From: Banduia mediterranea
Lineage (GTDB): Bacteria; Pseudomonadota; Gammaproteobacteria; Nevskiales; Nevskiaceae
DNA length: 64,000 nucleotides
Direction: 5' to 3'
NCBI RefSeq assembly: GCF_031846245.1
Contig: NZ_JAVRIC010000010.1
Coordinates: 1 to 64,000 of the forward strand
The notes below the pieces were generated by a model, which had not been told where the DNA came from, did not search any database, and was given only the letters and a program-made list of their open reading frames with translations. Each line of letters starts with the position of its first letter. Position 1 is the stretch's first letter. Positions 14,173 through 29,239 of this stretch are shown one piece after another. Made by a program: the position numbers and the translations under genes.

Positions 14173-14204
14173 GAGCGAGCGAGCGAGTCAGTCAGTCAAT
14201 CAGA
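14173..14204. repeat. Tetranucleotide microrepeats (GAGC)n-(AGTC)n
   Basis: Three GAGC units followed by three AGTC-type units straddle the stop codon of the M20 hydrolase gene. Slippage here could shift the last codons of that protein. Confidence 0.7.
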
Positions 14205-15414
14205 GCGATATTTCGCCGCGCGCCAGACGCAGCAACAGCAGTGCGGAGAGTTGTGCGCGCTCGCTCAGACTGGAGATGCGCATGTATTCGGCGTCCGAGT
14301 GAATCTTGCCGCCGACAACGCCGAGGTTGTCGATATTCGGAAGGCCGTGCGCCGCCAGATTGTTGCCGTCGCAGCAGCCGCCGGTCGGCAGGAATTCCAG
14401 ACTGAAGCCCAGTTCGCGACCGCAGTCTCCGATCAGTCCGGCGAGCTTTTCGGTCAGCCCGTGGAACGGCTTGGGCGGCCGGGTGAAACCGCCGCGCAGT
14501 TCAAGGCGAATGCCGTCGCGTTGGCCGATGTCCGCCATCAGTGATTCGAGCTGCGCCCGCATCCAGGTTTCGTCTTCGGCGGTGGAAGTGCGCACATTGA
14601 ATTTGAACACGCACAGCGCCGGCACCACGTTGAGCGCGCCGCCGCCCTTGATGTAGCCGGGGTTGATGGTGATGCCGTCGCGCGTGCCGTTGAGCGCGTC
14701 CAGCGCTGCCACGAAATCGGCGCAGGCTCGGATCGCATTGCGGCCCAGGTGGTGCTCGCGTCCGGCGTGCGCGGCGCGGCCGTGCACGATCACGTCGAAA
14801 TTGCCGCTGCCCTTGCGCGTCCCGGCGAGATTGCCGTCCGGGAAGGACGGTTCGTAGATCATGCCGAAGCGGTTGCGCGCGGCGGCTTCGGCCAGCAGCG
14901 GAGCCGAACCGTGCGAGCCGATTTCCTCGTCGGGATTGAACAGCACCTCCCAGCCGATGGCTGCATTCCAGGGGCTGGCCTCCAGGGCGCGCAGCGCCTG
15001 CAGCATGACCAGCTGACCGCCCTTGAGATCGGCCACACCGGGGCCGTGCAGGGTGTCCGCGTCGACCTGACGTGCCGTCTGAAACGGATGATCGGCCGCG
15101 AACACGGTGTCCAGATGTCCGCACAGGAACACCTGCAGTGGCGCTTGCGGACGCTTGCGCAGACGGATGGCGCGACCGAGCGCGCGCTGGCGCAGCTCGC
15201 CGGAGTCCGCAATGCTGGCGAACGGCGCGACTTCAATGTGTTCCACCTGAGCTTGCAGATCCGCGAACAGGGCGATCAGGCGTTCGCCATGGGTGTTGAC
15301 GCCCTCGACGTTGAAGCTGCCGGAGTTGATGTTGGACAGGGCGATCAGCTCGTCCCGCATCGCGGACTGCTGATCGGCGATGCCTTGCAATAGCGGCGCG
15401 TATGCGGCGTCCAT
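14200..15414 (-). CDS. M20-family metallopeptidase/deacylase (glutamate carboxypeptidase-like)
   Basis: A 404-aa dizinc hydrolase of the M20 (CPG2/ArgE) family. Metal and catalytic motifs are present: LCGHLDTVF (His and catalytic Asp), GPGVADLKGG (bridging Asp), NPDEEIGSHGS (general base Glu pair), Glu in IYEPSFPDG, and a final metal His in GGKIHSDAEY. The dimerisation domain insert lies between (GRAAHAGREHHLGRNAI). No signal peptide, so cytoplasmic. Position upstream of astA suggests a role in succinyl- or acetyl-arginine/ornithine breakdown, which is inference; substrate specificity cannot be read from sequence. Confidence 0.85.
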   Translation of the reverse strand: MDAAYAPLLQGIADQQSAMRDELIALSNINSGSFNVEGVNTHGERLIALFADLQAQVEHIEVAPFASIADSGELRQRALGRAIRLRKRPQAPLQVFLCGHLDTVFAADHPFQTARQVDADTLHGPGVADLKGGQLVMLQALRALEASPWNAAIGWEVLFNPDEEIGSHGSAPLLAEAAARNRFGMIYEPSFPDGNLAGTRKGSGNFDVIVHGRAAHAGREHHLGRNAIRACADFVAALDALNGTRDGITINPGYIKGGGALNVVPALCVFKFNVRTSTAEDETWMRAQLESLMADIGQRDGIRLELRGGFTRPPKPFHGLTEKLAGLIGDCGRELGFSLEFLPTGGCCDGNNLAAHGLPNIDNLGVVGGKIHSDAEYMRISSLSERAQLSALLLLRLARGEISL

Positions 15415-15477
15415 GGCGATCCTGCGTGCAAAGCACCATTGTACGGTCGCCGCTCCAATCGCCGGTTGGCCGGAATT

Positions 15478-15521
15478 GTCCGCCGGCCCTGTCCGGTACG
15501 TCCGGCCGACAGTCCGCGGAC
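15478..15521. promoter_or_regulatory. GTCCG/CGGAC repeat cluster, candidate enhancer site of the sigma54 regulator
   Basis: GTCCG occurs at 15478, 15491 and 15500, and as a perfect palindrome GTCCGCGGAC at 15512-15521, about 67 bp upstream of the sigma54-type promoter at 15588. The same motif recurs before the second such promoter (17052-17084). Position and symmetry fit an upstream activating sequence for an NtrC-type dimer. Confidence 0.5.
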
Positions 15522-15587
15522 AGTGTCCTGTTTGGTGAGATTTGAATTCAAGTAAATAAAATCAACAAGATAATTCGACAATCAAAC

Positions 15588-15602
15588 TGGTATGCCGCTT
15601 GC
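15588..15602 (+). promoter_or_regulatory. sigma54-type promoter of the TolC-like gene
   Basis: TGGTATGCCGCTTGC has the invariant GG and GC separated by exactly 10 nt and the TTGC -12 element. It ends 33 bp before the gene start, inside an AT-rich stretch. An NtrC-type activator is encoded in the same locus. Confidence 0.65.
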
Positions 15603-15634
15603 GCCATCACACCCTGGACCGTTCGGAGAAGATT

Positions 15635-17050
15635 ATGCGCAGTGCCGGGGAGTCGGCGAAGCCGCGCGTCGTTGCGAGCATCAGCTCGGCCATCATGCTG
15701 GCCGTTGCGCTGTGCATGCTGCCGGGCGTGGCGCAGGCCGAGGGTCTGATGCAGGCCTATCGCAAGGCATTGACGCAGGACATGACGCTGGTCGCGGCGC
15801 TGGAAGCGCGCAATGCGGCGATCGAGGCGCGCCCGCAGGCGGTTTCCAGTTTTCTGCCGCAGCTCGATGCCAATGCCGGCTATGCGCGGGAGCACTATCA
15901 CTATGAATCCGATGCGGCCGGTGTACCGGATGACCCTTCCGATCCGGAGCCCGACGCCGCTGACGATGTGCGTCTGTCCGGCTCACGCCGTGAGTGGTCG
16001 CTGAGCCTGACGCAGACCCTGTGGAGCTTCGAGGCCTTTCACCAGTTGCAGAGCGCGAGCCTGGACGTGGCCAGTGCCGAGGCGAGCTATCGCGCGGCGC
16101 AGCAGGACCTGATGCTGCGGGTCGCCCAGGCTTATTTCGAGGTTCTGGCGGCGTCCGACGCCTTGTTCGCCAACAAGGCCGAGCGCGAGTCCTATGCCAC
16201 GCTGGTGGACCAGGCGCAGAAGCGGCTCAGCACCGGTCTCGGTGCACGCATCGGCGTGGATGAGGCGCGTGCCTTCTACGAACTCACTGCGCAAAGCGTG
16301 ATCGATTCGGAAACCGCCTTGATGGACGCGCAGCGCGCCCTGGCGCAGATCACCGGCACGCTGGACCTCGCGGTCACGCCGCTGGCCGAGGAGATTCCCT
16401 TGCGCCGCCCGGATCCGGAATCGGCCGACGACTGGGCGCAGGCCGCCTCGCGCGACAACTACTCGGTGCTGGCGGCCAGCCTGGACACGGACTCCGCCGA
16501 ACGTACGGTGGCGGCGACCCGTGCACAGCATCTGCCGAGCCTGCAGTTGCAGGGCACGCTCGGACACACCGCGCTGTCGCCGCAGCTCGGCAGCGACTAT
16601 CGCGCCGACAGTCTCGGCGTCTACGTCGATTGGCCGATCTTCAGTGGCGGTCTGCTGCGCTCACGGGTACGCGAGGCCAGTGCCTTGCAGCGCGGCGCCG
16701 AAGCCGGTCTGGAAAGCGCACGCCGGGATGTGGATCGGCAGGCACGCCTGGCCTATCGCGGCGTGATTGCCGGCATCCACAAGCTGCAATCGAATCAGCG
16801 CGCCGTGAACGCCAATCGCATCGCGCTGAACGCCAGCCGCAGCGGCGTTGAAGTGGGCACACGCACCGAGTTCGATCTGCTCAATGCGCAGAACAACTAC
16901 TACGCCGCGCTGCGCAGCTACTACCAGTCGCGCTACGACTATCTGACCAACCTGCTGCGGCTCAAGGCTCTGGCCGGGCGCTTGGTGGAGGCCGATCTGG
17001 TGGCCATCGACGCGCTGCTGGACGCGGATGCCAAGCGGAGCCAGCCCTGA
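15635..17050 (+). CDS. TolC-family outer-membrane efflux channel
   Basis: A 471-aa outer-membrane protein from the ATG at 15635, chosen for cggagaag 4 nt upstream. The signal peptide runs to about AQA|EG near residue 38 (SSAIMLAVALCMLPGVAQAE). The mature part has two TolC repeat halves rich in long heptad helices: MQAYRKALTQDMTLVAALEA, LNAQNNYYAALRSYYQSRYD and a GVYVDWPIFSGGLLRSRVRE strand. It forms the trimeric exit duct for a tripartite pump whose other parts are encoded directly downstream. Length is typical (TolC ~470 aa). A sigma54-type promoter lies upstream. Confidence 0.92.
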   Translation: MRSAGESAKPRVVASISSAIMLAVALCMLPGVAQAEGLMQAYRKALTQDMTLVAALEARNAAIEARPQAVSSFLPQLDANAGYAREHYHYESDAAGVPDDPSDPEPDAADDVRLSGSRREWSLSLTQTLWSFEAFHQLQSASLDVASAEASYRAAQQDLMLRVAQAYFEVLAASDALFANKAERESYATLVDQAQKRLSTGLGARIGVDEARAFYELTAQSVIDSETALMDAQRALAQITGTLDLAVTPLAEEIPLRRPDPESADDWAQAASRDNYSVLAASLDTDSAERTVAATRAQHLPSLQLQGTLGHTALSPQLGSDYRADSLGVYVDWPIFSGGLLRSRVREASALQRGAEAGLESARRDVDRQARLAYRGVIAGIHKLQSNQRAVNANRIALNASRSGVEVGTRTEFDLLNAQNNYYAALRSYYQSRYDYLTNLLRLKALAGRLVEADLVAIDALLDADAKRSQP

Positions 17051-17051
17051 T

Positions 17052-17084
17052 GTCCGGCGGACTGTCCGGGCGCCGTCAGCGGAC
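17052..17084. promoter_or_regulatory. GTCCG/CGGAC repeat cluster upstream of the fusion-protein gene
   Basis: GTCCG-g-CGGAC at 17052-17062 forms an 11-bp inverted repeat. A second GTCCG at 17064-17068 pairs with CGGAC at 17080-17084. This lies 70-100 bp upstream of the second sigma54-type promoter and matches the cluster at 15478-15521. Confidence 0.5.
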
Positions 17085-17151
17085 GCGTTTTCCCTCGCTT
17101 TTATTTGTAAAATTATTAAATAAAACAATTAATTATTTAATAAACTTAAAA

Positions 17152-17166
17152 TGGATCGCGGTTTGC
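17152..17166 (+). promoter_or_regulatory. sigma54-type promoter of the fusion-protein/ABC operon
   Basis: TGGATCGCGGTTTGC has GG and GC exactly 10 nt apart and a TTTGC -12 box. It is immediately preceded by about 55 bp of very AT-rich DNA, and the gene start follows 45 bp downstream. Confidence 0.65.
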
Positions 17167-17211
17167 GCGTTGCTGTCATCACGCCGCGCTTCGCGGCTGG
17201 AGAGTCGATAG

Positions 17212-18483
17212 ATGTTTCGTGACACGAGTGCGCAGGACCGGGTCGTCGAGCGAGCGTCGTTCTGGAAACGGCGGCGTCTGCCGATCGCGATTGCGCTGCT
17301 GATCGTGATCGGCATCGTGATGCTGGCGCCGGGGCTGGCGCGCCTGTGGTCAGCCGAAAAATCGGTGAGCGCCTCGCGCCTGTCGATCGCCACGGTGGAG
17401 CGCGGGCGTTTCGTGCGGGACATCGCGGCCGAGGGGCGGGTGGTCGCGGCCGTCAGCCCCACGCTGTACGCCGCCGCCGCCGGCACCGTGAGCTTCGAAA
17501 TCACGGCCGGGCATGACGTGGCGCAAGGCGAGGTGCTCGGCACCATCGAAAGCCCGGAGCTGGAGAGCGAACTGGCGCAGGAGCGATCAGCCTTGCAGGC
17601 GATGACGGTGGACTACCGGCGCGCACAGCTCGACGCCCGGCAGAAGGCGCTGGTGGCGGACGAGACCCTGGAGAAGGCACGCATCGACCGGAATGCCGCG
17701 GCGACCGAGCAGGCGCGGACGCAGAAGGCCTTCGATCTCGGCGTGATTCCGGAGATCGAGGTGATGCGCACCCAGGCCGCGCTGGACAAGGCCGAGGTGG
17801 CCTACAAGCACGCGCAGAGCGACCGCGGCCTGCAGTCCGAAGGCCTGGCCTTCGAGGTCGATGCCAAGCGCCTGGCGCGTGACCGGCAGGCCTTGCTGGT
17901 CAAGGATCTCGATCGCAAGGTCGATCTGCTGAGCCTGCATTCCCCGGTTTCGGGCCAGGTCGGTCAGCTGCTGGTCGCCGAGCGCGCCTATGTCGCCAAG
18001 GACACGCCCTTGCTCACGGTGGTCGACCTCAGCGCGCTGGAGGTGGAACTCAAGGTGCCGGAAAGCTTCGCGCGCGATCTGGCGGTGGGCATGCCGGCCG
18101 AGATTCGCGGCAGTGGCCGCGAATTCACGGGTGAAGTCGGCGCCGTCTCGCCGGAGGTCGTCAGCGGCGAGGTCACGGCCCGCGTGCGCTTCACCGGCGA
18201 TGCGCCGCAGGGATTGCGTCAGAACCAGCGCCTGTCGGTGCGCGTGCTGCTCGACGCCCGCGACGATGTGCTGATGGTCGCGCGCGGTCCGTTCCTGGAA
18301 TCCGGTGGCGGCAACAGCGGCTACGTGGTTCAGGGCGACATCGCCGAGCGCCGCGTGATCCATACCGGCGCCGCCAGCATCGACAAGGTCGAGGTGCTCG
18401 ACGGACTGCAGGTCGGCGAACGCATCGTGATTTCCGGAAGCGACAACTTCGATGGCGCTCAGCGCGTTGTCATCAGTCGCTAA
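17212..18483 (+). CDS. HlyD/MacA-type periplasmic membrane fusion protein
   Basis: A 423-aa adaptor that bridges the inner-membrane ABC transporter to the TolC-like channel. One N-terminal anchor helix (LPIAIALLIVIGIVMLAPGL, residues ~22-41) is followed by the split lipoyl domain (TVSFEITAGHDVAQGEVLGT and LHSPVSGQVGQLLVAERAYV). Between them is a long coiled-coil hairpin (~residues 115-240), and then the beta-barrel and C-terminal domains (LPDVV-like LDGLQVGERIVISG). The ATG at 17212 has ggagag upstream. It is separated from the channel gene by its own sigma54-type promoter and lies 50 bp before the ATPase gene. Confidence 0.9.
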   Translation: MFRDTSAQDRVVERASFWKRRRLPIAIALLIVIGIVMLAPGLARLWSAEKSVSASRLSIATVERGRFVRDIAAEGRVVAAVSPTLYAAAAGTVSFEITAGHDVAQGEVLGTIESPELESELAQERSALQAMTVDYRRAQLDARQKALVADETLEKARIDRNAAATEQARTQKAFDLGVIPEIEVMRTQAALDKAEVAYKHAQSDRGLQSEGLAFEVDAKRLARDRQALLVKDLDRKVDLLSLHSPVSGQVGQLLVAERAYVAKDTPLLTVVDLSALEVELKVPESFARDLAVGMPAEIRGSGREFTGEVGAVSPEVVSGEVTARVRFTGDAPQGLRQNQRLSVRVLLDARDDVLMVARGPFLESGGGNSGYVVQGDIAERRVIHTGAASIDKVEVLDGLQVGERIVISGSDNFDGAQRVVISR

Positions 18484-18533: not shown

Positions 18534-19244
18534 ATGCTAAAGATGGCCCGTCTGTCCAAGGCCTTCCGCACCGAAGTGGTGGAGACCTTCGCCTTGCGTG
18601 ACTTTTCGATCCACGTGCGCGAAGGCGAATTCGTGGCCGTGACCGGTCCTTCCGGTTCCGGCAAGACCACGTTTCTCAACATCGCCGGCCTGCTGGAAAC
18701 GCCGACGGGCGGAACCTACGAACTCGACAGCCAGGACGTGAGCCGTCTCGGCGACGATGCGCGCTCGCGCATCCGCAACGAGAAGATCGGCTTCATTTTC
18801 CAGGCCTTCAATCTGATTCCCGATCTCAATGTGTTCGACAACGTCGACGTGCCCTTGCGCTACCGCGGCATGAAGGGCTCCGAACGCAAGCGCCGCATCG
18901 AGGACGCGCTGGCGCGTGTCGGTCTGTCGGCCCGCACCAAGCATTATCCGGCCGAGCTGTCCGGCGGTCAGCAGCAGCGCGTCGCCATCGCGCGTGCCTT
19001 GGCCGGCAGTCCGCGTCTGCTGCTGGCGGACGAACCCACCGGCAACCTCGACACGCAGATGGCGCGCGCCGTCATGGAGCTGGTCGAGGAAATCCACCGC
19101 GACGGCGCGACCATCGTGATGGTCACGCACGATCCGGAACTGGCGGCGCGTGCGCAGCGCAATGTGCACATCGTCGACGGGCAGGTGGTGGACCTCGGCG
19201 ATCCCGAGGCACGGCTGACCGCCGCCAGCGCCGTGCAGGCCTGA
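18534..19244 (+). CDS. ABC transporter ATP-binding protein (MacB/LolD type)
   Basis: A 236-aa ATPase. Walker A GPSGSGKTT is at residues 38-46, the Q-loop lies in FIFQAFNLIPDLNV, the signature is LSGGQQQRVAIARAL, Walker B is LLLADEPTGNLD and the H-loop is VMVTHDPELAARA. This is the LolD/MacB/FtsE subgroup that works with mechanotransmitting FtsX-fold permeases instead of pulling substrate through the membrane. The start MLKMARLSKAF at 18534 is preferred; an internal Met at residue 4 is possible. It forms a tight operon with the two permease genes (13-bp gap to the first). Confidence 0.93.
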   Translation: MLKMARLSKAFRTEVVETFALRDFSIHVREGEFVAVTGPSGSGKTTFLNIAGLLETPTGGTYELDSQDVSRLGDDARSRIRNEKIGFIFQAFNLIPDLNVFDNVDVPLRYRGMKGSERKRRIEDALARVGLSARTKHYPAELSGGQQQRVAIARALAGSPRLLLADEPTGNLDTQMARAVMELVEEIHRDGATIVMVTHDPELAARAQRNVHIVDGQVVDLGDPEARLTAASAVQA

Positions 19245-19257
19245 GGCCGGCATCACC

Positions 19258-20565
19258 ATGTTCCGTTACTACGCCTGGCTTGCCGTGCGCGGCCTGAAAC
19301 GCAATCCCGGACTCACGGCGCTGATGGTGCTGGCGATCGGCATCGGCATCGGCGCCAGCGTGACCACGCTGACAGTGCTGCAGGTGCTGTCCGGCGATCC
19401 CCTGCCGGGCAAGAGCGACACGTTGTTCTATCCGCAGATCGATCCGCAGGATTCGCTGGGTTATCAGCCCGGCGAGGAGCCGCCCGACGTCATCAGCTAT
19501 CTGGACGCCAAGAACCTGCTGGATGCGCGTCGCGCCGACCGTCAGGCAGTGATGACCGGCGGCGGCGCGGCGGTCATTCCGGACAAGGCGGGGGTCGATC
19601 CGTACCTGCTGGATCTGCGCTACACCTCGGCCGATTTCTTCGCGATGTTCGAGGTGCCGTTTCTGCACGGTAGCGGCTGGACCGGAGCGGACGACGAGGC
19701 GCATGCGCGCGTCGTGGTGATTTCGCGCCGGCTCAACGACAAGCTCTTCGATGGCGGCAACAGCGTGGGCCGCACGCTGCGCCTCAACAATCAGGACTTC
19801 CGCATCGTCGGCGTGATCGACGAATGGCGCCCGAACCCGCATTTCTACGACCTCAACACCGGCAATTATTCGGATTCCGAAGAGGCCTTCATTCCGCTGG
19901 AGACGGCCATCCAGCTGGAGATGGGGCGCAACGGCACGATGAACTGCTTCGGCGAAGAACGGCTCACGCCACAGCAGCAGCTCACCTCCGGAAGCTGCAT
20001 GTGGCTGCAGTACTGGGTGGAACTCGACTCGGCCGAAAAGCACAAGGATTACCTGAATTTCCTGACGAGCTACAGCGAGGAGCAGCGGCGGCTGGGGCGC
20101 TTCGAGCGGCCGGCCAACGTGCGGCTGCGCAGCCTGATGCAATGGCTGGACTATCAGAAGGTCGTGCCCGAGGACGTGCGCCTGCAATCCTGGACCGCGC
20201 TCGGATTTCTGGTGGTGTGCATCGTCAACACCGTGGGGCTGATGCTCGCCAAGTTCCTGCGCCGCAGCAACGAAGTGGCTGTAAGACGAGCGCTCGGCGC
20301 TCCTCGAACCTCGATCTTCTTTCAGTTCCTGCTCGAAGCCGGGGTTGTGGGGGCGGCCGGGGCGCTGCTGGGTCTGGTGCTGTCGCTGGCCGGGCTCGCC
20401 GCCGTGCGCATGCAGCCGGTGGACTATGCGGAGCTTGCGCACCTCAATGGCTTGATGTTCTGCGCTGCGGTGTTGATGGCCGTGATTGCCAGTCTCGTCG
20501 CCGGCCTGCTGCCGGCCTGGCAGGCCTGCCGTGTGCCGCCTGCGCTACAGCTCAAGAGCGAGTGA
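19258..20565 (+). CDS. FtsX/MacB-type ABC transporter permease, first subunit
   Basis: A 435-aa inner-membrane protein with one N-terminal helix (GLTALMVLAIGIGIGASVTT), a ~220-residue periplasmic MacB-type core domain, and three C-terminal helices (LGFLVVCIVNTVGLMLAKFL, GVVGAAGALLGLVLSLAGLA, LMFCAAVLMAVIASLVAGLL). The VRRALGAPRTSIFFQFLLEA coupling segment before helix 3 is characteristic. It probably pairs with the following, different permease as a heterodimer, unlike homodimeric MacB. Periplasmic cysteines (MNCFGEE, SGSCMW) may form a disulfide. The stop lies 2 bp before the start of the next gene. Confidence 0.88.
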   Translation: MFRYYAWLAVRGLKRNPGLTALMVLAIGIGIGASVTTLTVLQVLSGDPLPGKSDTLFYPQIDPQDSLGYQPGEEPPDVISYLDAKNLLDARRADRQAVMTGGGAAVIPDKAGVDPYLLDLRYTSADFFAMFEVPFLHGSGWTGADDEAHARVVVISRRLNDKLFDGGNSVGRTLRLNNQDFRIVGVIDEWRPNPHFYDLNTGNYSDSEEAFIPLETAIQLEMGRNGTMNCFGEERLTPQQQLTSGSCMWLQYWVELDSAEKHKDYLNFLTSYSEEQRRLGRFERPANVRLRSLMQWLDYQKVVPEDVRLQSWTALGFLVVCIVNTVGLMLAKFLRRSNEVAVRRALGAPRTSIFFQFLLEAGVVGAAGALLGLVLSLAGLAAVRMQPVDYAELAHLNGLMFCAAVLMAVIASLVAGLLPAWQACRVPPALQLKSE

Positions 20566-20567
20566 AC

Positions 20568-21779
20568 ATGGATATCCAACCGATACTCAAAGCGCTGCGT
20601 CATCAGAAGACCGCGGCCCTGCTGATCGCGTTCGAGATCGCACTGGCCTGCGCGATCATCTGCAACGCCACCTTCCTGATCGTCAGTCGAATGGAACGCA
20701 GTCAGATGCTCAGCGGCGTCGCGGAGAGCGAACTGCTGCGCATTCGCGCCGCCAGCCTCGACGACGGGGAAGACAAGATGGCGCGGATTCGCGAGGACAT
20801 CGCCGGGCTGCGCAGCATCCCCGGCGTGGTCTCGGTCACCACCACGCAGCAGGTACCGTTCGGACAATCATCCTGGAATTCCGGTGTGCGCACCGCGCCG
20901 GATCAGAAGAACGTCGTGGTCAATGCCACCACGTACTACGACGGCGGTGACATGCTGTCCACCTTCGGTCTGAAACTGGTGGCCGGCCGCGATTTCTCGC
21001 CGGACGAGTACTACGATTTCGACGACGTCGCCAGCGGTGCCGTGACGCCAAGCTCGATCATCATCAGTCAGACTCTGGCGAATCGCCTCTGGCCTGGCGA
21101 ACCGCCTCTGAACAAGCCCATCTATATGGGTAGCAGCGATCCGCTGCGCGTCATCGGCGTGGTCGAAACCTTGGTGCGGCCGTCGATCTGGGATGACAGC
21201 ACGGCTCACGACTGCATGATCTTTCCCACGCGGGGCGCACCCGGAACCCAGTACGTCCTGCGTGCGCAGGGCGCCGACCTGGATGGCGTGATCAAGAGCG
21301 CCACAGCCAAGCTCAAGGCCTTGCAGCCGAACCGCATCGTGCGGGGGGCGGAAACCTTCACCCAATTGCGCGAGGACTACTTTCGCCAGGACCGCGTCAT
21401 GGCCGTACTGCTGATGACCGTGATCGTCGCGCTGCTGGTGGTGACGGCGCTGGGCATCGTCGGGCTGGCCAGCTTCTGGGTGCAGCGCCGCCAGCGCCAC
21501 ATCGGTATCCGCCGTGCGCTCGGCGCTACGCGCGGCAACATCCTGCGCTACTTCCAGCTTGAGAATTTCCTGATCGTCAGCTCGGGCATCCTGTTCGGCA
21601 TGTTCGCGGCCTACGGCATCAACGCCTGGTTGATGCAGCATTACGAACTGCCGCGTCTGCCGCTGTTCTATCTGCCGATGGGTGCCGCGGCACTGTGGCT
21701 GCTGGGCCAGCTGTCCGTGCTGTATCCGGCATTGCGCGCCACGCGTGTGCCGCCGGCAACCGCCTCACGCAGGGCATAA
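20568..21779 (+). CDS. FtsX/MacB-type ABC transporter permease, second subunit
   Basis: A 403-aa permease with the same topology: N-terminal helix (TAALLIAFEIALACAIICNA), periplasmic core, then three helices (VMAVLLMTVIVALLVVTALG onward) with the coupling motif IGIRRALGATRGNILRYFQL. It is clearly diverged from the first permease (no N-terminal NPGLTAL motif), supporting a heterodimer. The start is the ATG at 20568. The C-terminus ends RATRVPPATASRRA, a motif repeated almost exactly by the decayed copy just downstream. Confidence 0.88.
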   Translation: MDIQPILKALRHQKTAALLIAFEIALACAIICNATFLIVSRMERSQMLSGVAESELLRIRAASLDDGEDKMARIREDIAGLRSIPGVVSVTTTQQVPFGQSSWNSGVRTAPDQKNVVVNATTYYDGGDMLSTFGLKLVAGRDFSPDEYYDFDDVASGAVTPSSIIISQTLANRLWPGEPPLNKPIYMGSSDPLRVIGVVETLVRPSIWDDSTAHDCMIFPTRGAPGTQYVLRAQGADLDGVIKSATAKLKALQPNRIVRGAETFTQLREDYFRQDRVMAVLLMTVIVALLVVTALGIVGLASFWVQRRQRHIGIRRALGATRGNILRYFQLENFLIVSSGILFGMFAAYGINAWLMQHYELPRLPLFYLPMGAAALWLLGQLSVLYPALRATRVPPATASRRA

Positions 21780-21798
21780 CAAGGGATCACTGAACCAG

Positions 21799-22053
21799 GT
21801 GGGGATATTTCGCGGGATTGTCGTGGCGCAGCCCACGCCGCACACCGGCGCTGACGGCCTTGATGGTACTGAGGATCGCTTTGGGCATCGGCGCCTCGAT
21901 GACCTCGTTCGCGGTGTACTGCTGAACCTGTGGCTGGTCACGCATTACGAGATGGCGCGCCTGTCGCTGCCCTACATCCTTGTAGCCGCCGTGCTGCAAC
22001 CGGCGCGCCGTGCGTCCCGCGTGCCGCCGATGGTGGCGACGCGCGAGGCATAG
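21799..22053 (+). pseudogene. Decayed third ABC permease with a large internal deletion
   Basis: From 21799 one frame reads WGYFAGLSWRSPRRTPALTA, LMVLRIALGIGASMTSFAVY, C, stop. This matches the N-terminal helix of the first permease (GLTALMVLAIGIGIGAS). Right after the stop, another frame gives LNLWLVTHYEMARLSLPYIL and ends RASRVPPMVATREA, matching the C-terminal helix and tail of the second permease (LMQHYELPRLPLFYLP...RATRVPPATASRRA). About 300 residues of core are missing between. It is the remnant of a third paralogous permease. Confidence 0.7.
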
Positions 22054-22072: not shown

Positions 22073-23410
22073 ATGCGCACCGTACTGATCATCGACGACA
22101 ACCAAGCGGTCGGCGACGCCCTGGCGCTGTTGCTGTCGTTGCACGAAATCCGCGCCCTGATCGCGTATTCGCCGGAGGGCGGACTGGCCGAACTCGACCG
22201 CAGTGATGTCGATGTCGTCATCCAGGACATGAACTTCACCGCGGACACCACCTCGGGCGAGGAGGGCGTGGCGCTGTTTCGCGCGATCCGTGAGCGCCAT
22301 CCGGACCTGCCGGTGATTCTGCTGACGGCCTGGACGCACCTGGAAACGGCGGTGGAACTGGTCAAGGCCGGCGCCGCGGATTACGTCGCCAAGCCCTGGG
22401 ACGACGCCAAACTGTCGGCCACGGTCGAAAATCTGCTGGAGTTGTCCGAGAGCACGCGCGAGGTCTCGCGCCATCGGCGCGAACGGCGCCGCCGTCGCGC
22501 GGAACTCGAATCGCGCTACGACCTGCGCGGCATCGTCTACGGCGCCACCGCCACCGAGCGTGTGATCGAGCTGGCCTGCCAGGTCGCGCGGGCCGAGATT
22601 CCGGTGCTGATCACCGGCCCCAACGGCGCCGGCAAGGAACGCATCGCCGACATCCTGCATGCCAATTCGGCCGTGAGGCGCGGCGCCTTCGTCACCGTCA
22701 ATTGCGGTGCCCTGCCATCCGAGCTGATCGAAGCGGAGCTGTTCGGGGCCGAGGCCGGCGCCTACACCGGTTCGACCCGAGCACGCGAAGGGCGTTTCGA
22801 ACGGGCCGACGGCGGCACGCTGTTCCTGGACGAAATCGGCAATCTGCCATTGTCGGGGCAGGTGAAGTTGCTGCGCGTGCTCGAATCCGGCGATTTCGAG
22901 CGCCTCGGGTCGGCGCGCACGCGGCACGTCAAGGTGCGTTTGCTCAGCGCCACCAATGCCGATCTGCCGGCGATGATCGAGGAAGGCACGTTTCGCGAAG
23001 ACCTTTACTACCGGCTCAATGTCATCGAGGTTCGCCTGCCTCCGCTGGCGGAGCGCTGCGATGACATCCCGCCGCTGGCCGAGCATTTCCTGAATGGCGA
23101 GGCACGCCTCTCCGACGAGGCACGGGACGCGCTCATGGCCCATTCCTGGCCCGGTAATGTGCGCGAACTGCGCAACGCGCTGGAACGCGCCCGCCTGCTG
23201 TGCCGGGACGGCGTGATCGAGGTGGCCGATCTCGATCTGCCGGCGCGCAAGCCCGCTGCGGCGCGCAATCTGGACGAGCCGGACAAGGCCGCCGTCGAAG
23301 CGGCGCTGGCCGCCGCCGGCGGCGTGGTCAGCCGCGCGGCGCAGGCGCTGGGGCTGTCGCGTCAGGCGCTGTATCGGCGCATGGAACGCTTCGGTGTTTC
23401 GGAATCCTGA
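22073..23410 (+). CDS. sigma54-dependent response regulator (NtrC family)
   Basis: A 445-aa activator. The receiver domain is at residues 1-120 with phosphoacceptor Asp52 (VVIQDMNF). The AAA+ domain spans ~150-370, with Walker A GPNGAGKE, Walker B GGTLFLDEIGNL and arginine-finger region FREDLYYRLNVIEVRLPPL. A Fis-type helix-turn-helix closes it (GVVSRAAQALGLSRQALYRR). The sigma54-contacting loop at 229-234 reads GAYTGS instead of the usual GAFTGA. The gene lies just after the pump genes and 45 bp before its kinase gene, and probably activates the two sigma54-type promoters upstream. Confidence 0.92.
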   Translation: MRTVLIIDDNQAVGDALALLLSLHEIRALIAYSPEGGLAELDRSDVDVVIQDMNFTADTTSGEEGVALFRAIRERHPDLPVILLTAWTHLETAVELVKAGAADYVAKPWDDAKLSATVENLLELSESTREVSRHRRERRRRRAELESRYDLRGIVYGATATERVIELACQVARAEIPVLITGPNGAGKERIADILHANSAVRRGAFVTVNCGALPSELIEAELFGAEAGAYTGSTRAREGRFERADGGTLFLDEIGNLPLSGQVKLLRVLESGDFERLGSARTRHVKVRLLSATNADLPAMIEEGTFREDLYYRLNVIEVRLPPLAERCDDIPPLAEHFLNGEARLSDEARDALMAHSWPGNVRELRNALERARLLCRDGVIEVADLDLPARKPAAARNLDEPDKAAVEAALAAAGGVVSRAAQALGLSRQALYRRMERFGVSES

Positions 23411-23454: not shown

Positions 23455-24786
23455 ATGGCCCGGCGTAGTTTCTCTGTCGAGGGCAGGCTCGCCGCCTTGC
23501 TGATGGCGGTCTACGCCTGTGGTGCGCTGACGGCGGTGTTGTTTGCCACCTTGCTGGGGGAGGAGCGCTGGTCGTTGCTGCTGAGCCTGGGCTTCGGCCT
23601 GCCGCTGGCGCTGCTGATCGCGCGCCAGGCGATACAGCCGGCGGCGAAACTGCTGCGGGCACTGCAAAGTGCGGTGGCGAGTTACCGTGATGGCGATTTC
23701 AGCGTCTCCATCACCAACGACCGCAATGACGAGCTTGGCCGGTTGGTCGCTGTCCACAATGAACTGGGCAGCACGCTGCGCGAACAGCGCCAGCATTTGG
23801 TACAGCGCGAGTTGATGCTGGATACGGTGGTGCAAAACACGCCGGTGGCCCTGGTGCTGACCGAGCACAGCGGTCGCATCGCCTATGCCAACCTCGCCGC
23901 GCGCAAGCTGTTCAATGACGGCCGCAGCATCGGCGGGCTGGCGTTTTCATCGCTGCTCGATAAGCTGCCCGAGGTGGTACGGGACGCGGTGGCGAGCGGC
24001 GAAGATGGCTTGTTCACCGTCGCGATCGAGGGCATCGACGAGACTTTTCACGTTTCGCGGCGGGGTTTTCGCCTGCAGGGACGGCCGCACCGCCTCTACC
24101 TGATGCGGCGCATGACGCGGGAGTTGTCGCGGCAGGAAGTGGCCACCTGGAAAAAGGTCATCCGCGTCATCAGCCATGAGCTCAACAATTCCCTGGCGCC
24201 GATTTCGTCCATGGCGCATTCCGGCGCGGAGTTGGCGAGGCGCGGCGATACCGCGCGTCTGCCGCAGGTATTCGGTTCGATCCGCGAGCGCACGCGGCAT
24301 TTGCACGGTTTCATCGACGGATACGCGCGTTTTGCCAAGTTGCCGGTGCCGCAGTTGGCGCGTCTGGACTGGGCCGAGTTCATGGACACGCTCGCGGGCC
24401 AGGTCTCGTTCACGCTGGACGGCGGCCTGCCGGAGACGCCGGTGTGGCTGGATCGCACGCAGATCGAGCAGGTGCTCATCAACCTGATCAAGAACGCCCA
24501 CGAATCCGGCGGCGCCGCCGACCAGGTGCGGGTCTCGGTGCAGCGGGTGGCCGATGAATTCCGCGTGGACATCGCCGACCGCGGCAGCGGCATGAGCGAG
24601 GCGGTGCTCGCCAACGCCTTGCTGCCGTTTTATTCCACCAAGCGCAGCGGCACCGGCCTGGGGCTGGCGCTGGCCCGCGAAATCGTGGAGGCGCACGGCG
24701 GTCGCATTCATTTGTCCAACCGCAGCGGCGGCGGTCTGCGGGTGCGTTTGGCGCTGCCGGCCGCCGCGCGGGAGCCCCTGGCCTGA
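23455..24786 (+). CDS. Sensor histidine kinase, partner of the NtrC-type regulator
   Basis: A 443-aa membrane kinase. Two N-terminal helices (LAALLMAVYACGALTAVLFA and LLLSLGFGLPLALLIARQAI) are separated by only a few residues, so there is almost no periplasmic sensor loop. A HAMP-like region (ndelgrLVAVHNELG), a PAS-like segment and a NtrB-type transmitter follow: H-box VISHELNNSLAP, N-box NLIKNAHESGG, G1 DRGSGMSEAV, G2 SGTGLGLALAREIVEAHGG. With no large extracellular domain it may sense within the membrane, or monitor the adjacent transporter as in BceS-type systems; that is inference. Confidence 0.9.
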   Translation: MARRSFSVEGRLAALLMAVYACGALTAVLFATLLGEERWSLLLSLGFGLPLALLIARQAIQPAAKLLRALQSAVASYRDGDFSVSITNDRNDELGRLVAVHNELGSTLREQRQHLVQRELMLDTVVQNTPVALVLTEHSGRIAYANLAARKLFNDGRSIGGLAFSSLLDKLPEVVRDAVASGEDGLFTVAIEGIDETFHVSRRGFRLQGRPHRLYLMRRMTRELSRQEVATWKKVIRVISHELNNSLAPISSMAHSGAELARRGDTARLPQVFGSIRERTRHLHGFIDGYARFAKLPVPQLARLDWAEFMDTLAGQVSFTLDGGLPETPVWLDRTQIEQVLINLIKNAHESGGAADQVRVSVQRVADEFRVDIADRGSGMSEAVLANALLPFYSTKRSGTGLGLALAREIVEAHGGRIHLSNRSGGGLRVRLALPAAAREPLA

Positions 24787-26505: not shown

Positions 26506-28758
26506 ATGAACCCAGTCATGACGTCGGGGCACGCGGAACAGGCCGCCGCTGCGCGGGATTTGTTGAATGCGTGCGAGCGCGAACCGATTCACGTTCCGGG
26601 CAGCGTGCAGCCGCACGGCGTATTGCTGTGCATGGACGAGAATCTCAGGATCGTCCAGGCCAGCGAAAGTGCCGACATCTGGTTGAGCCACAGCGCCGAT
26701 GCCCTGGTCGGCCGGGAATGTGCCGAGCTGCTGGGCGAATCCGATATGGAGCGTCTGCGAACGGCCAGGGGCAGGGCGGATATCGAGGAAGCACCCCTCT
26801 ACATCGGCGTGCTCACGGCCAATGCGCGCCGCTTCGATGGCGTGCTCCACCGCAACGACCAACTGCTGTATCTCGAACTGGAACCCACCCGGCGCGAACA
26901 GGACATGGGCTTCGGAGGCATCTACCCCCTGGTCCGATCGTTCGTATCGAACCTTCAGAGCGCGAGCTCCGTGGATGCGCTGTGCGAGCTCGCCGCGCAG
27001 GAGACCAAGACCATCACCGGATTTGGCCGCATCCTCGTTTACCGCTTTGACGAGGACGGGCATGGCCAGGTGCTGGCAGAGCGGCGCGACGAATCCTACG
27101 AGTCCTGCCTGGGCATGCTGTTTCCGGCGTCCGATGTGCCACCTCAGGCCCGTGAGCTGTATCTCAGAAATCGCGTGCGTCTGATCGCGGACGCAAATGC
27201 CAGCCCTTCGCCATTGCATCCGCGCGACAACCCGCTGAGCGGCGCGCCTACCGACCTCAGCTTTTCGGGGCTGCGCAGCGTCTCGCCGGTACACATCCAG
27301 TACATGAAGAACATGGACATCCTCGCGTCCATGTCGGTCTCGATCATCGTGCGCGGTCGCCTGTGGGGCCTGATCTCGTGCCATAACGCCGAACCCCGCC
27401 AGGTACCGTTCGATGCCCGCACCGCCTGCGAGCACCTGGGGCAGATCCTGTCGCTGCAGATCGAAGCCAACGAAGAGCGCGCGCAGACCCAGCAGCGGCT
27501 CGAGTTGCGGCGCATTCTGGTCGGACTGCTGTCCGCGATCGCGGATCGCGATGATTTCGTGGCCGGACTGATGTCCAGCCCGACCGATCTGCTGGCGTTC
27601 GCGGGTGCCGGTGGGGCCGCGATCCTGTTCGGCGGCCGTTGCGAGTTATTCGGTGATACCCCCGATGAAGCCGAAGTGCTCAAGCTGGTGGGCTGGTTGT
27701 CCGCCCATTCGTCCAACACGGTGTTCTCGAGCGCCTGTATCGACCGTGATCTTCCGGCCGACGTGGTCCCCATGGGCGACACGGCTGGCGTTATGGCGGT
27801 GTCGATCTCTCAGGTGCACCGCAACTACATCGTCTGGTTCCGACCGAAGGTCCGGCGCACCGTGACCTGGGCCGGCAGGCCGGACAAGACCGCGACAACC
27901 GCCGAGCCAACGATGCTCAGTCCGCGCAACAGCTTCGAGGCCTGGAGCGAGACGCATACGGAGTGCAGCCGCCCCTGGAGCGCCGGCGAGCTTGACGCGG
28001 CGCTGGAACTGCGCAGCGCGATCCTGACGATCGTTCTGCGCCGTGCCGAGGAAATGGCGGCGCTGGCGCATGAGCTGGAGCGCAGCAACCGCGAGCTGGA
28101 GGCGTTCTCGTATTCGGTGTCGCACGACCTGCGCGCACCGCTGCGTCATATCGTCGGCTACGCGGATCTGCTGCGCGAACTCGAAGGTGAGGGCTTGAGC
28201 GATCGAGGGCGTACGTATCTCGCCAACGTCGAGGAATCCGCGACCTTCGCCGGCACGCTGGTGGATGACCTGCTCACATTCTCGCAGATGGGGCGGGCCG
28301 CACTACGACCCACGCAGGTGAATATCCGCGAGCTGGCCGAATCGGTGATCAAGGATCTCGACGCCGAGACAGCGGGCCGTAACGTTCGCTGGGAATTCGG
28401 CGAACTGCCCGTGCTACGCGGCGATCCGGCCTTCCTGCAGATGGTGATGCGCAACCTGCTGTCGAATGCGGTCAAGTATTCGCGAGGGCGGGAGCCGGCC
28501 GTTATCCGTATCGACGGCGAAGACACGGCCACCACCCATGTCGTCCACGTTCGCGACAACGGGGTCGGCTTCAACATGAAGTATGTCGGCAAGCTGTTCG
28601 GGGTGTTTCAACGCCTGCATCGCATGGAGGATTTCGAAGGCACCGGTATCGGGCTCGCCAACGTCCGCAGAATCATCGAACGACATGACGGTCACGTCTG
28701 GGCGGAAGGGGAGACCGGCCACGGTGCGGTTTTTTCATTTGATCTACCCAAACTCTGA
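26506..28758 (+). CDS. bphP: Bacteriophytochrome histidine kinase
   Basis: A 750-aa red/far-red light sensor kinase. Residues ~15-120 are PAS_2, with chromophore-binding Cys23 in NACEREPIHVPGSVQPHG, the bacterial biliverdin-attachment position. GAF is ~140-310 with FPASDVPPQARELYLRNRVR and SPVHIQYMKNM (conserved His). PHY is ~320-500 (ILFGG, and a PRxxF-type WFRPKVRRTVTWAG tongue). The HisKA/HATPase module has H-box FSYSVSHDLRAPLRHIVGYA and G-box EGTGIGLANVRRII. The start is the ATG at 26506. The biliverdin-making heme oxygenase gene is not beside it. The next two genes are its likely phosphorelay partners. Confidence 0.95.
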   Translation: MNPVMTSGHAEQAAAARDLLNACEREPIHVPGSVQPHGVLLCMDENLRIVQASESADIWLSHSADALVGRECAELLGESDMERLRTARGRADIEEAPLYIGVLTANARRFDGVLHRNDQLLYLELEPTRREQDMGFGGIYPLVRSFVSNLQSASSVDALCELAAQETKTITGFGRILVYRFDEDGHGQVLAERRDESYESCLGMLFPASDVPPQARELYLRNRVRLIADANASPSPLHPRDNPLSGAPTDLSFSGLRSVSPVHIQYMKNMDILASMSVSIIVRGRLWGLISCHNAEPRQVPFDARTACEHLGQILSLQIEANEERAQTQQRLELRRILVGLLSAIADRDDFVAGLMSSPTDLLAFAGAGGAAILFGGRCELFGDTPDEAEVLKLVGWLSAHSSNTVFSSACIDRDLPADVVPMGDTAGVMAVSISQVHRNYIVWFRPKVRRTVTWAGRPDKTATTAEPTMLSPRNSFEAWSETHTECSRPWSAGELDAALELRSAILTIVLRRAEEMAALAHELERSNRELEAFSYSVSHDLRAPLRHIVGYADLLRELEGEGLSDRGRTYLANVEESATFAGTLVDDLLTFSQMGRAALRPTQVNIRELAESVIKDLDAETAGRNVRWEFGELPVLRGDPAFLQMVMRNLLSNAVKYSRGREPAVIRIDGEDTATTHVVHVRDNGVGFNMKYVGKLFGVFQRLHRMEDFEGTGIGLANVRRIIERHDGHVWAEGETGHGAVFSFDLPKL

Positions 28759-28765
28759 ACACGTC

Positions 28766-29239
28766 ATGAGCACCTCACTCAAACCCATACTTCTGGTGGA
28801 AGACAATCCCAAGGACCTTGAGCTGACCCTGATCGCGCTCGAGAAGAGCCAGCTTGCCAACGAGGTGGTGATCACGCGAGACGGTGTCGACGCACTGGAC
28901 TACCTGTTCTGCCGCGGCGACTACGAATCCCGTCACAACGGCAATCCGGCGGTCATTCTGCTCGATCTGAAACTGCCACGGCTCGACGGAATCGAGGTGC
29001 TGCAGGTGATCCGCACGACACCGGCGCTCAGAAGCATTCCCGTGGTGATGCTGACCTCCTCGCGCGAGGAGGCCGATCTGTTGCGCAGCTACGAACTGGG
29101 TGTGAACGCCTATGTCGTGAAGCCCGTCGCGTTCGGTGAATTCGTGGAGGCCATCACGGACCTCGGAATCTTCTGGGCGGTGCTCAACGAGCCACCTCCC
29201 GGTTCCGCCCGCGTTGCCCGAAGGAGCGCGCAAAAATGA
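28766..29239 (+). CDS. Single-domain response regulator (phytochrome-associated, Rcp1-like)
   Basis: A 157-aa CheY-like receiver with no output domain. The acidic pocket is LVEDNPKD, the phosphoacceptor Asp is in VILLDLKLPRLDGIEVL, then the conserved Thr/Ser (VMLTSSREEAD) and Lys (AYVVKPVAF). The insertion RGDYESRHNGNPA before the Asp strand is typical of receivers paired with phytochromes (Rcp1/BphR). The ATG at 28766 follows the phytochrome stop by 7 bp, and its stop overlaps the next start (ATGA). It probably relays phosphate from the phytochrome to another protein. Confidence 0.92.
   Translation: MSTSLKPILLVEDNPKDLELTLIALEKSQLANEVVITRDGVDALDYLFCRGDYESRHNGNPAVILLDLKLPRLDGIEVLQVIRTTPALRSIPVVMLTSSREEADLLRSYELGVNAYVVKPVAFGEFVEAITDLGIFWAVLNEPPPGSARVARRSAQK

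Follow-up and report, generated by a model that had tools for sequence, protein, structure and literature searches.

A phased TGTCCG array with a predicted sigma54 promoter at a tripartite FtsX-type pump locus of Banduia mediterranea, and its co-occurrence with the locus's NtrC-type regulator

MacB of the MacAB-TolC macrolide/enterotoxin exporter is an ATPase and a permease fused in one chain. In the Bce modules of Firmicutes the kinase has two transmembrane (TM) helices and a minimal extracellular loop, the regulator is of the OmpR type, the promoter is of the sigma70 type and there is a single large permease. PspF, the activator of the Psp response, has no receiver domain. According to an in silico study of sigma54 regulons (PLoS One, 2025; PMC12316311), FtsX-type permeases (COG0577) are enriched for sigma54 promoters in several classes, gammaproteobacteria among them, and its authors call this the first evidence of such a link. 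The locus described here lies in a stretch of 64,000 nucleotides of Banduia mediterranea (contig NZ_JAVRIC010000010.1, positions 1 to 64,000), referred to below as the window. A minus-strand open frame (14200-15414) is followed by genes for a TolC-type channel, a periplasmic adaptor, an ATP-binding cassette (ABC) ATPase, two permeases, an NtrC-type response regulator and a histidine kinase, ending at 24786. There is a cluster of repeats and a sigma54-like box in the intergenic region before the TolC gene and again in the region before the adaptor gene. Both regions are very probably sigma54 promoters that are driven by the locus's own NtrC-type regulator.

The initial annotation placed TGG-N10-GC boxes at 15588-15602 and 17152-17166, and both are there. 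It also called the GTCCG and CGGAC repeats before them unusual, and the counts agree: the two clusters rank first and second among 60-bp windows in the 64 kb (5 and 4 copies, where no other 60-bp stretch has more than 3; Poisson p 1.4e-6 and 7.6e-6, uncorrected and with the intervals picked post hoc), and the window has 13 occurrences of GTCCG-N0-20-CGGAC where 4.6 are expected, with none of 100 shuffles reaching 13. The box alone is uninformative, as TGGCAY-N5-TTGC with up to two mismatches is found 129 times in the window and 128.7 times in shuffles. It is the cluster and the box jointly that are special, and neither the 10-mer palindrome GTCCGCGGAC nor the box on its own. The region from 15440 to 17250 had no match among plasmid records.

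Conservation of both motifs in orthologous loci had been named as the test of this proposal. The comparison used 80 loci, the best of 576 relatives from a contig scan, and 14 stretches from a search of 61 genomes; with the duplicates L128/L023 and L145/L029 counted once, there are 93 nonredundant loci including the window. The regulator L128 is from G022, a genome of the same family as that of the window, and is identical to that of the Solimonas soli locus L023. The full order adaptor, ATPase, permease A, permease B, regulator and kinase is present in 60 of the 93 loci, and several others are cut by the end of a contig or stretch. Computation shows the elements to be present, conserved and consistently spaced, to follow the distribution of the regulator's clade and to recur at unlinked genes; boxes were scored with a position weight matrix (PWM) made from the sigma54 consensus. 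In the 300 bp before the adaptor gene a box scoring at least 12 is found in 48 of 66 loci (2 in shuffles), at least two TGTCCG/CGGACA half-sites in 54 of 66 (2 in shuffles) and both elements together in 43 of 66. Upstream of the ATPase, permease A, permease B, regulator and kinase genes the two elements are together in 0/73, 0/79, 0/77, 0/93 and 0/74 loci, respectively, which is 0 of 396 regions when the operon's other genes are pooled. On conservation, the proposal is upheld.

When the 93 loci were scanned for the whole architecture, it matched 69 times, in 58 of them; the 60 permuted half-sites gave 4.7 matches on average (maximum 37). All controls were kept in this mean, including GTGTCC, which reaches 37 matches because it overlaps the true motif at a one-base shift, and TGCTGC and GCTGCT (36 and 33), which probably reflect codon repeats. 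Fifty-seven of the 69 matches are directly before the adaptor or TolC gene, and all 58 positive loci have a match no more than 700 bp before one of these genes. Seven of the other 12 (L127, L129, L135, L136, L138, L061 and L074) are plus-strand matches some 0.5-0.7 kb upstream of the adaptor gene, and the operon there begins with a lineage-specific open reading frame (ORF) of 141-183 residues whose start, judged by eye, mostly resembles a signal peptide; the remaining five are L047 on the plus strand and four on the minus strand. There are 31 exact palindromes in 1.6 Mb of loci, of which 28 are within 281 bp before the adaptor or TolC gene, two are about 0.6 kb before the adaptor gene and one is elsewhere. 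The Burkholderiales loci have CGGACA direct repeats and none of them is among the exact palindromes. As a separate observation, lineage-specific ORFs of 104-183 residues, by eye mostly exported, are located between the sigma54 promoter and the adaptor gene in the same seven loci and in L232 and L233.

The fine anatomy of the unit was taken from 66 different promoters in which GTCCGCGGAC is exact and the box scores 9 or more. Of these, 31 come from the 93 loci and 35 from further stretches, some of which complete orthologous loci; the count omits L225, L227, L230, L231, L234 and L236 (L225, the G018 site, would pass, and L230 and L231 repeat counted sites). Palindrome and TGG are 53-58 bp apart in 17 promoters and 65-69 bp apart in 46, together 63 of 66; the others have 46, 80 and 96 bp, and the two spacer classes differ by about one helical turn. 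Further TGTCCG copies lie upstream at 11-13, 20-22, 29-34, 42-43 and 52-53 bp (distances seen at least twice), mostly as direct half-sites at helical spacing. Fits of a helical period gave a steady rise from period 10 to 12 with no peak, because the two spacer classes dominate, and the histogram was relied on. Integration host factor (IHF)-like sites, with at most one mismatch to the consensus, are present in 38 of 66 spacers compared with 5.3 in 60 shuffles (standard deviation 2.2, maximum 11). Of 24 top-strand matches, 21 begin 17-18 or 28-29 bp before TGG. Both window promoters fit, with the palindrome position ending 66 and 67 bp and the IHF-like site 28 and 29 bp before TGG in the TolC and adaptor promoters, respectively. 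The unit as refined runs from helix-phased TGTCCG repeats through the palindrome GTCCGCGGAC and an IHF-like site to a sigma54 box, which lies 53-58 or 65-69 bp downstream of the palindrome. The motif had initially been given as GTCCG...CGGAC inverted repeats; the repeats are indeed conserved, but the unit consists of phased TGTCCG half-sites and GTCCGCGGAC at a quantised distance.

The motif tracks the regulator's clade sharply. Among loci with an adaptor match, the architecture is present in 13 of 15 with regulator identity of at least 70%, 28 of 29 at 60-70%, 16 of 20 at 50-60%, 1 of 2 at 47-50% and 0 of 3 below. Of the 66 loci that have an adaptor match and a regulator at 46.5% identity or more, 58 have it, and of all 10 loci below 46.5% none does. 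The two misses in the highest class are stretches cut before the promoter, which L232 and L233 show. All 61 relatives have some match to the regulator, and the composite pattern occurs in 8 of the 17 with an orthologue (E <1e-150) compared with 1 of the 44 without (Fisher 6e-5), the reversed pattern being found in 1 of 61. In a class-wide draw of 369 genomes a stricter pattern occurs in 3 of 8 with an orthologue (E 1e-120 or better) and in 1 of 361 without (Fisher 3e-5), and among the rows listed none has the reversed pattern. The genome sets share members with the locus set: G260 and G460, two of the three class-wide positives, repeat promoter sequences of G073 and L052. Additionally, the motif site lies within the regulator's own cluster in both beta- and gammaproteobacteria. 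Exact TGTCCGCGGACA was rejected as a sole predictor, being present in 27 of the 61 relatives, that is in 12 of 17 with a close regulator orthologue but also in 15 of 44 without. The palindrome and box at G018:C40, with no other half-site and no close regulator orthologue, were treated as chance, as was G048:C309 (box 8.2).

The features of the locus are given in Table 1. The IHF consensus used for the window sites is WATCAANNNNTTR.

Table 1. Regulatory elements and genes of the pump locus (positions in the window)
Feature	Position	Strand	Remarks
Enhancer cluster before TolC gene	15478..15521	+	GTCCG starts 15478, 15491, 15500, 15512; CGGAC 15517
Palindrome GTCCGCGGAC	15512..15521	.	Ends 66 bp before -24 box; own genome's only match of composite pattern
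IHF-like site AATCAACAAGATA	15560..15572	+	1 mismatch to WATCAANNNNTTR; 28 bp before -24 box; sequence reading
Predicted sigma54 -24/-12 box TGGTATGCCGCTTGC of TolC gene	15588..15602	+	PWM 11.3; same in congener G001
TolC-family outer membrane channel gene	15635..17050	+	Pfam OEP, NCBIfam TIGR01844 above cut-off
Enhancer cluster before adaptor operon	17052..17084	+	GTCCG starts 17052, 17064; CGGAC 17058, 17080
Palindrome-homologous position, reads GTCAGCGGAC	17075-17084		GTCCGCGGAC in G001; ends 67 bp before TGG
IHF-like site AAACAATTAATTA	17123..17135	+	1 mismatch; 29 bp before -24 box; sequence reading
Sigma54-like box TGGATCGCGGTTTGC of adaptor operon	17152..17166	+	TGGCGCGCGGTTTGC in G001; PWM 10.3 vs 13.2 in G001
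Periplasmic adaptor (HlyD/RND_mfp type)	17212..18483	+	Profile matches
ABC ATPase	18534..19244	+	Profile matches; nearest named model DarD, under cut-off
Permease A (MacB_PCD + FtsX)	19258..20565	+	Profile matches
Permease B (MacB_PCD + FtsX)	20568..21779	+	Profile matches
Remnant of deleted permease pairs: third permease A start joined to third permease B end	21780..22053	+	Comparison with G001
NtrC-type response regulator: receiver, AAA+ sigma54-activation domain with GAYTGS loop, Fis-type helix-turn-helix	22073..23410	+	
Histidine kinase: 2 adjacent N-terminal TM helices, very short loop, HAMP, weak PAS match	23455..24786	+	

An NtrC-type regulator and its kinase had been placed at the end of the locus, and profiles support both (22073-23410 and 23455-24786). 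The regulator matches Pfam Response_reg, Sigma54_activat and HTH_8, in that order and all above cut-off. Against the NCBIfam equivalogs it scores 340/714 bits with AtoC, 334/558.6 with NtrC and 328/502.6 with PEP_resp_reg, and among the best 25 of 92 models it is under the curated cut-offs of the named equivalogs (AtoC, NtrC, PrsR, ZraR, GlrR and others). Its sigma54-contact loop is GAYTGS, a minority form shared by 6 of 93 orthologues including the window; 56 have GAYTGA, 13 GAFTGA, 4 GAYTGI and 3 GAYTGL, and 11 were unmatched by the search expression. Hydropathy of the kinase shows two TM helices with barely any loop between them. Two TM windows no more than 13 residues apart are found in 75 of 85 kinases examined, and the remaining 10 are mainly from Rhodanobacteraceae and have a longer loop or an uncertain start. 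RpoN has one match in the own genome, where there are six further sigma54-activator homologues besides the locus regulator (E 8e-56 or better). Elsewhere in the window, the ORFs in a row from 26506 to 31185 resemble, as read from their translations, a sensor kinase of the phytochrome type, a response regulator of small size and a hybrid kinase.

The unit is also present away from the pump locus. In the Rhodanobacteraceae (Dyella, Rhodanobacter and Luteibacter; G061-G068) it recurs at unlinked places, several per genome, with spacers of 66-69 bp and near-consensus boxes. These sites and those of Pseudoalteromonas were chosen by eye from a loose-pattern listing and are an incomplete census. There is a unit before further pumps or permease pairs (L198, L200, L201, L206, L211, L216 and L219) and before an alpha/beta hydrolase (L203, by Pfam; L210 is 79% identical). 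In Pseudoalteromonas it precedes an S41 peptidase (L223, by Pfam; L224 is 77% identical) and a second pump (L222, with a box score of just 9.0). Finally, it precedes paralogous proteins of 27-71 residues (MKFETLML...), by eye with one hydrophobic stretch. Members of this MKFETLMLxxLFxACLxxCxLxxGAML family (L197, L199, L202-L205, L207-L209, L212-L215, L217, L218, L220 and L221) are sometimes in tandem, and GGAG is right before the start in 18 of the 20 listed. A profile of 17 members matched in 8 of 59 chosen genomes, all Rhodanobacteraceae, with 21 matches at E <1e-8 and one weak match (0.004). By coordinates all 21 are directly behind a composite site; most of them helped to build the profile, and G067:C23 did not. 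No Pfam match was found for the three members tested and no NCBIfam match for the two tested.

In the own genome, a box scoring at least 9 lies within 35-100 bp of two of the 8 exact palindromes, one in the TolC promoter and one on the minus strand at G000:C2:65892. At this second site the spacer is 66, the IHF consensus is matched exactly, by reading, and the box is TGGCACGCTGCTCGCA; it lies before a protein of 82 residues (GVGQWIAAQGNAALRE; L284/L276) with a signal-peptide-like start, and there are no additional half-sites. A homologue of this protein (49% over 65 residues) is behind a unit in G008 (L235). Its paralogue (L144, G000:C15) heads the psp operon, which consists of the small gene, PspA and a PspC-like gene (PspC 99 of 104 bits) and is divergent from PspF. 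The psp operon has a sigma54 box and no TGTCCG site in the 200 bp upstream examined. The 82-residue protein matches neither Pfam nor NCBIfam models, and the paralogue has just a weak BhsA match far under the cut-off. Because the targets include a psp-related protein, an S41 peptidase and a hydrolase, the most likely role of the regulon is in envelope or antimicrobial stress. The circuit had initially been predicted to be closed, but it is not confined to this locus, given one candidate target elsewhere in the genome and several per genome in Rhodanobacteraceae. Neither the 10-mer alone nor the loose composite patterns were kept as predictors across a genome, since controls were equal or higher. 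Of 12 loose candidates in the own genome, two are the window promoters and the others have no half-site cluster apart from C7:22900, which has a box score of 14.1 but just plain CGGAC matches upstream. Separately, TGTCCG-N0-20-CGGACA has 23 forward matches in the own genome and 5 in the reversed control.

Several observations count against the regulator's control of two sigma54 promoters. The scan missed the architecture in 11 of the 69 loci that have an adaptor match: the stretches of L131 and L132 stop short of the promoter, which L232/L233 show; L134 and L137 have TTGCACG in place of TGG; L066, L068, L083 and L084 have few or no half-sites; and L090, L094 and L095 have regulator identity below 46.5%. 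The loci are related by descent, the sigma54 PWM and the IHF consensus are taken from general background, and the box consensus of the 66 promoters is partly circular, as they were selected at PWM of at least 9. The spacer of 96 (L050, minus strand) is probably chance. The bare 10-mer GTCCGCGGAC is unenriched in the own genome (8 sites and 8 in the reversed control), where a looser composite pattern has 12 matches against 20 for the reversed control; in 36 other genomes the loosest pattern has 103 against 128 (summed rows), and the strict pattern is unmatched in 9 of the 17 regulator-positive relatives. To these are added the regulator's GAYTGS loop in place of the usual GAYTGA/GAFTGA and, in this strain, an adaptor box without its CA and a palindrome with one substitution.

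The -24 GG and -12 GC of the box are kept at fixed spacing in orthologues, and the box at 17152 has drifted. Judged from the comparison with the congener G001, the adaptor-operon copy is the one that has drifted in this strain: it reads TGGATCG and GTCAGCGGAC where G001 has TGGCGCG and GTCCGCGGAC. Permease pairs number three in G001 and one in the window, and fragments of 21780-22053 match two separate places, the start of the third permease A of G001 (95.6%) and the end of its third permease B (80%). An ancestral circuit that is decaying or inactive in this strain would account for this drift, for the two lost pairs with their remnant and for the GAYTGS loop. We consider it unlikely, because the TolC box and palindrome are identical to those of the congener, the regulator is 98% identical to that of G001, the pump, regulator and kinase frames are all open, and a further intact-looking target is present (G000:C2:65892).

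If the boxes are true sigma54 promoters, the TGTCCG array could be read by another enhancer-binding protein, e.g. a paralogue elsewhere in the genome. The six further activator homologues and the paralogue of one target-like small protein beside PspF leave room for this. It is nevertheless quite improbable, since the motif follows the clade of the locus regulator sharply (all 61 relatives match the regulator, yet the composite site is in 1 of 44 without a close orthologue and 8 of 17 with one) and is sited in the regulator's own cluster across beta- and gammaproteobacteria. G+C-rich inverted repeats do occur directly after the TolC stop codon and sigma54-like boxes are common by chance, so that the repeats might be terminators or chance palindromes and the boxes chance. 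This is scarcely credible: the cluster before TolC lies between divergent open frames, the upstream copies are mostly direct half-sites at helical spacing, and both elements occur together before the adaptor or TolC gene and not before the operon's other genes. The terminator and chance readings were rejected on the 43 of 66 adaptor regions with both elements against 0 of 396 elsewhere.

For control by the locus's own regulator, we infer regulator binding, sigma54 dependence, a part for IHF, phosphorylation, the signal and operon read-through. The membrane kinase, with two TM helices and almost no periplasmic loop, would phosphorylate the regulator, which would bind the helix-phased TGTCCG half-sites centred on the GTCCGCGGAC palindrome. 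The bound array would seed the regulator's AAA+ ring, IHF would bend the AT-rich spacer, and the ring would remodel sigma54-RNA polymerase at the -24/-12 box, which lies 66-67 bp downstream. Expression of the pump genes (TolC, adaptor, ATPase and permeases) would rise and, if the operon is read through, so would that of the regulator and kinase (positive feedback). The signal would most likely be envelope or antimicrobial stress. Because the kinase has hardly any loop, ligand binding via a periplasmic sensor domain is unlikely, and the simplest idea is that sensing may take place inside the membrane or by way of the pump, in the manner of Bce modules. Tentatively, the locus could be a sigma54-based Gram-negative counterpart of a Bce module, in which a tripartite FtsX-type pump acts as its own sensor via an intramembrane-type kinase and an NtrC-type regulator. 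The regulator would command a scattered regulon through one strictly spaced enhancer-IHF-promoter unit, including the MKFETLML small membrane proteins and small secreted proteins as pump partners or envelope-stress effectors. We regard this wider proposal as possible rather than probable.

The predicted DNA code, in which phased TGTCCG half-sites and GTCCGCGGAC are followed by an IHF-like site and, at about 55 or 67 bp, by a sigma54 box, may be used to predict the targets of the regulator. The regulator is nameless in NCBIfam and widespread at FtsX-type tripartite pumps in beta- and gammaproteobacteria, including Stenotrophomonas, Xanthomonas, Lysobacter, Shewanella and Pseudoalteromonas. The code led beyond the pump locus to two small-protein families whose tested members match nothing in Pfam or NCBIfam above cut-off. 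It appears to connect the pump with the phage-shock response, and it would make the pump's signal and substrate accessible to simple reporters.

In full-text searches of the open-licence literature we recognised no paper with this motif for a bacterial regulator of such a pump. The retrieved portions of PMC10433810 and PMC7280030 show no link to the system, and PMC3462791 (Pseudomonas aeruginosa fabAB) contains TGTCCG once and sigma54. Other papers that came up have, by title, eukaryotic or viral-vector subjects, plus mycobacterial PrpR/GlnR (PMC6986058). The in silico study (PMC12316311) had already inferred sigma54 control for the class of FtsX-type ABC permeases; the portions of it compared here contain neither an enhancer motif nor a cognate regulator, and no IHF site, rule of spacing or targets among small proteins.

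Compared with MacAB-TolC, the locus shares the TolC channel, the adaptor, the MacB_PCD + FtsX permease and the ABC ATPase, but its ATPase (18534-19244) and permeases (19258-20565 and 20568-21779) are separate and the MacA and MacB equivalog cut-offs are not reached. The ATPase scores best to DarD of the darobactin exporter DarBCDE, and the adaptor matches DarC and permease B, weakly, DarB; all these matches are below the equivalog cut-offs, and darobactin genes were not looked for. The Psp response with PspF is likewise a sigma54-driven envelope-stress operon, and the first gene of the own psp operon is a paralogue of the 82-residue target, but the operon is another one and the locus regulator, in contrast with PspF, has a receiver domain. 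With the antimicrobial-peptide detoxification modules of the Bce type the locus has in common an FtsX-type ABC transporter beside a two-component system and a kinase with two TM helices and almost no extracellular loop. It differs in having a sigma54/NtrC-type regulator (Sigma54_activat + HTH_8), two permeases, an adaptor and TolC. As far as can be told, the logic is that of ordinary sigma54 control, and what is new is the enhancer code, its likely regulator and the target families.

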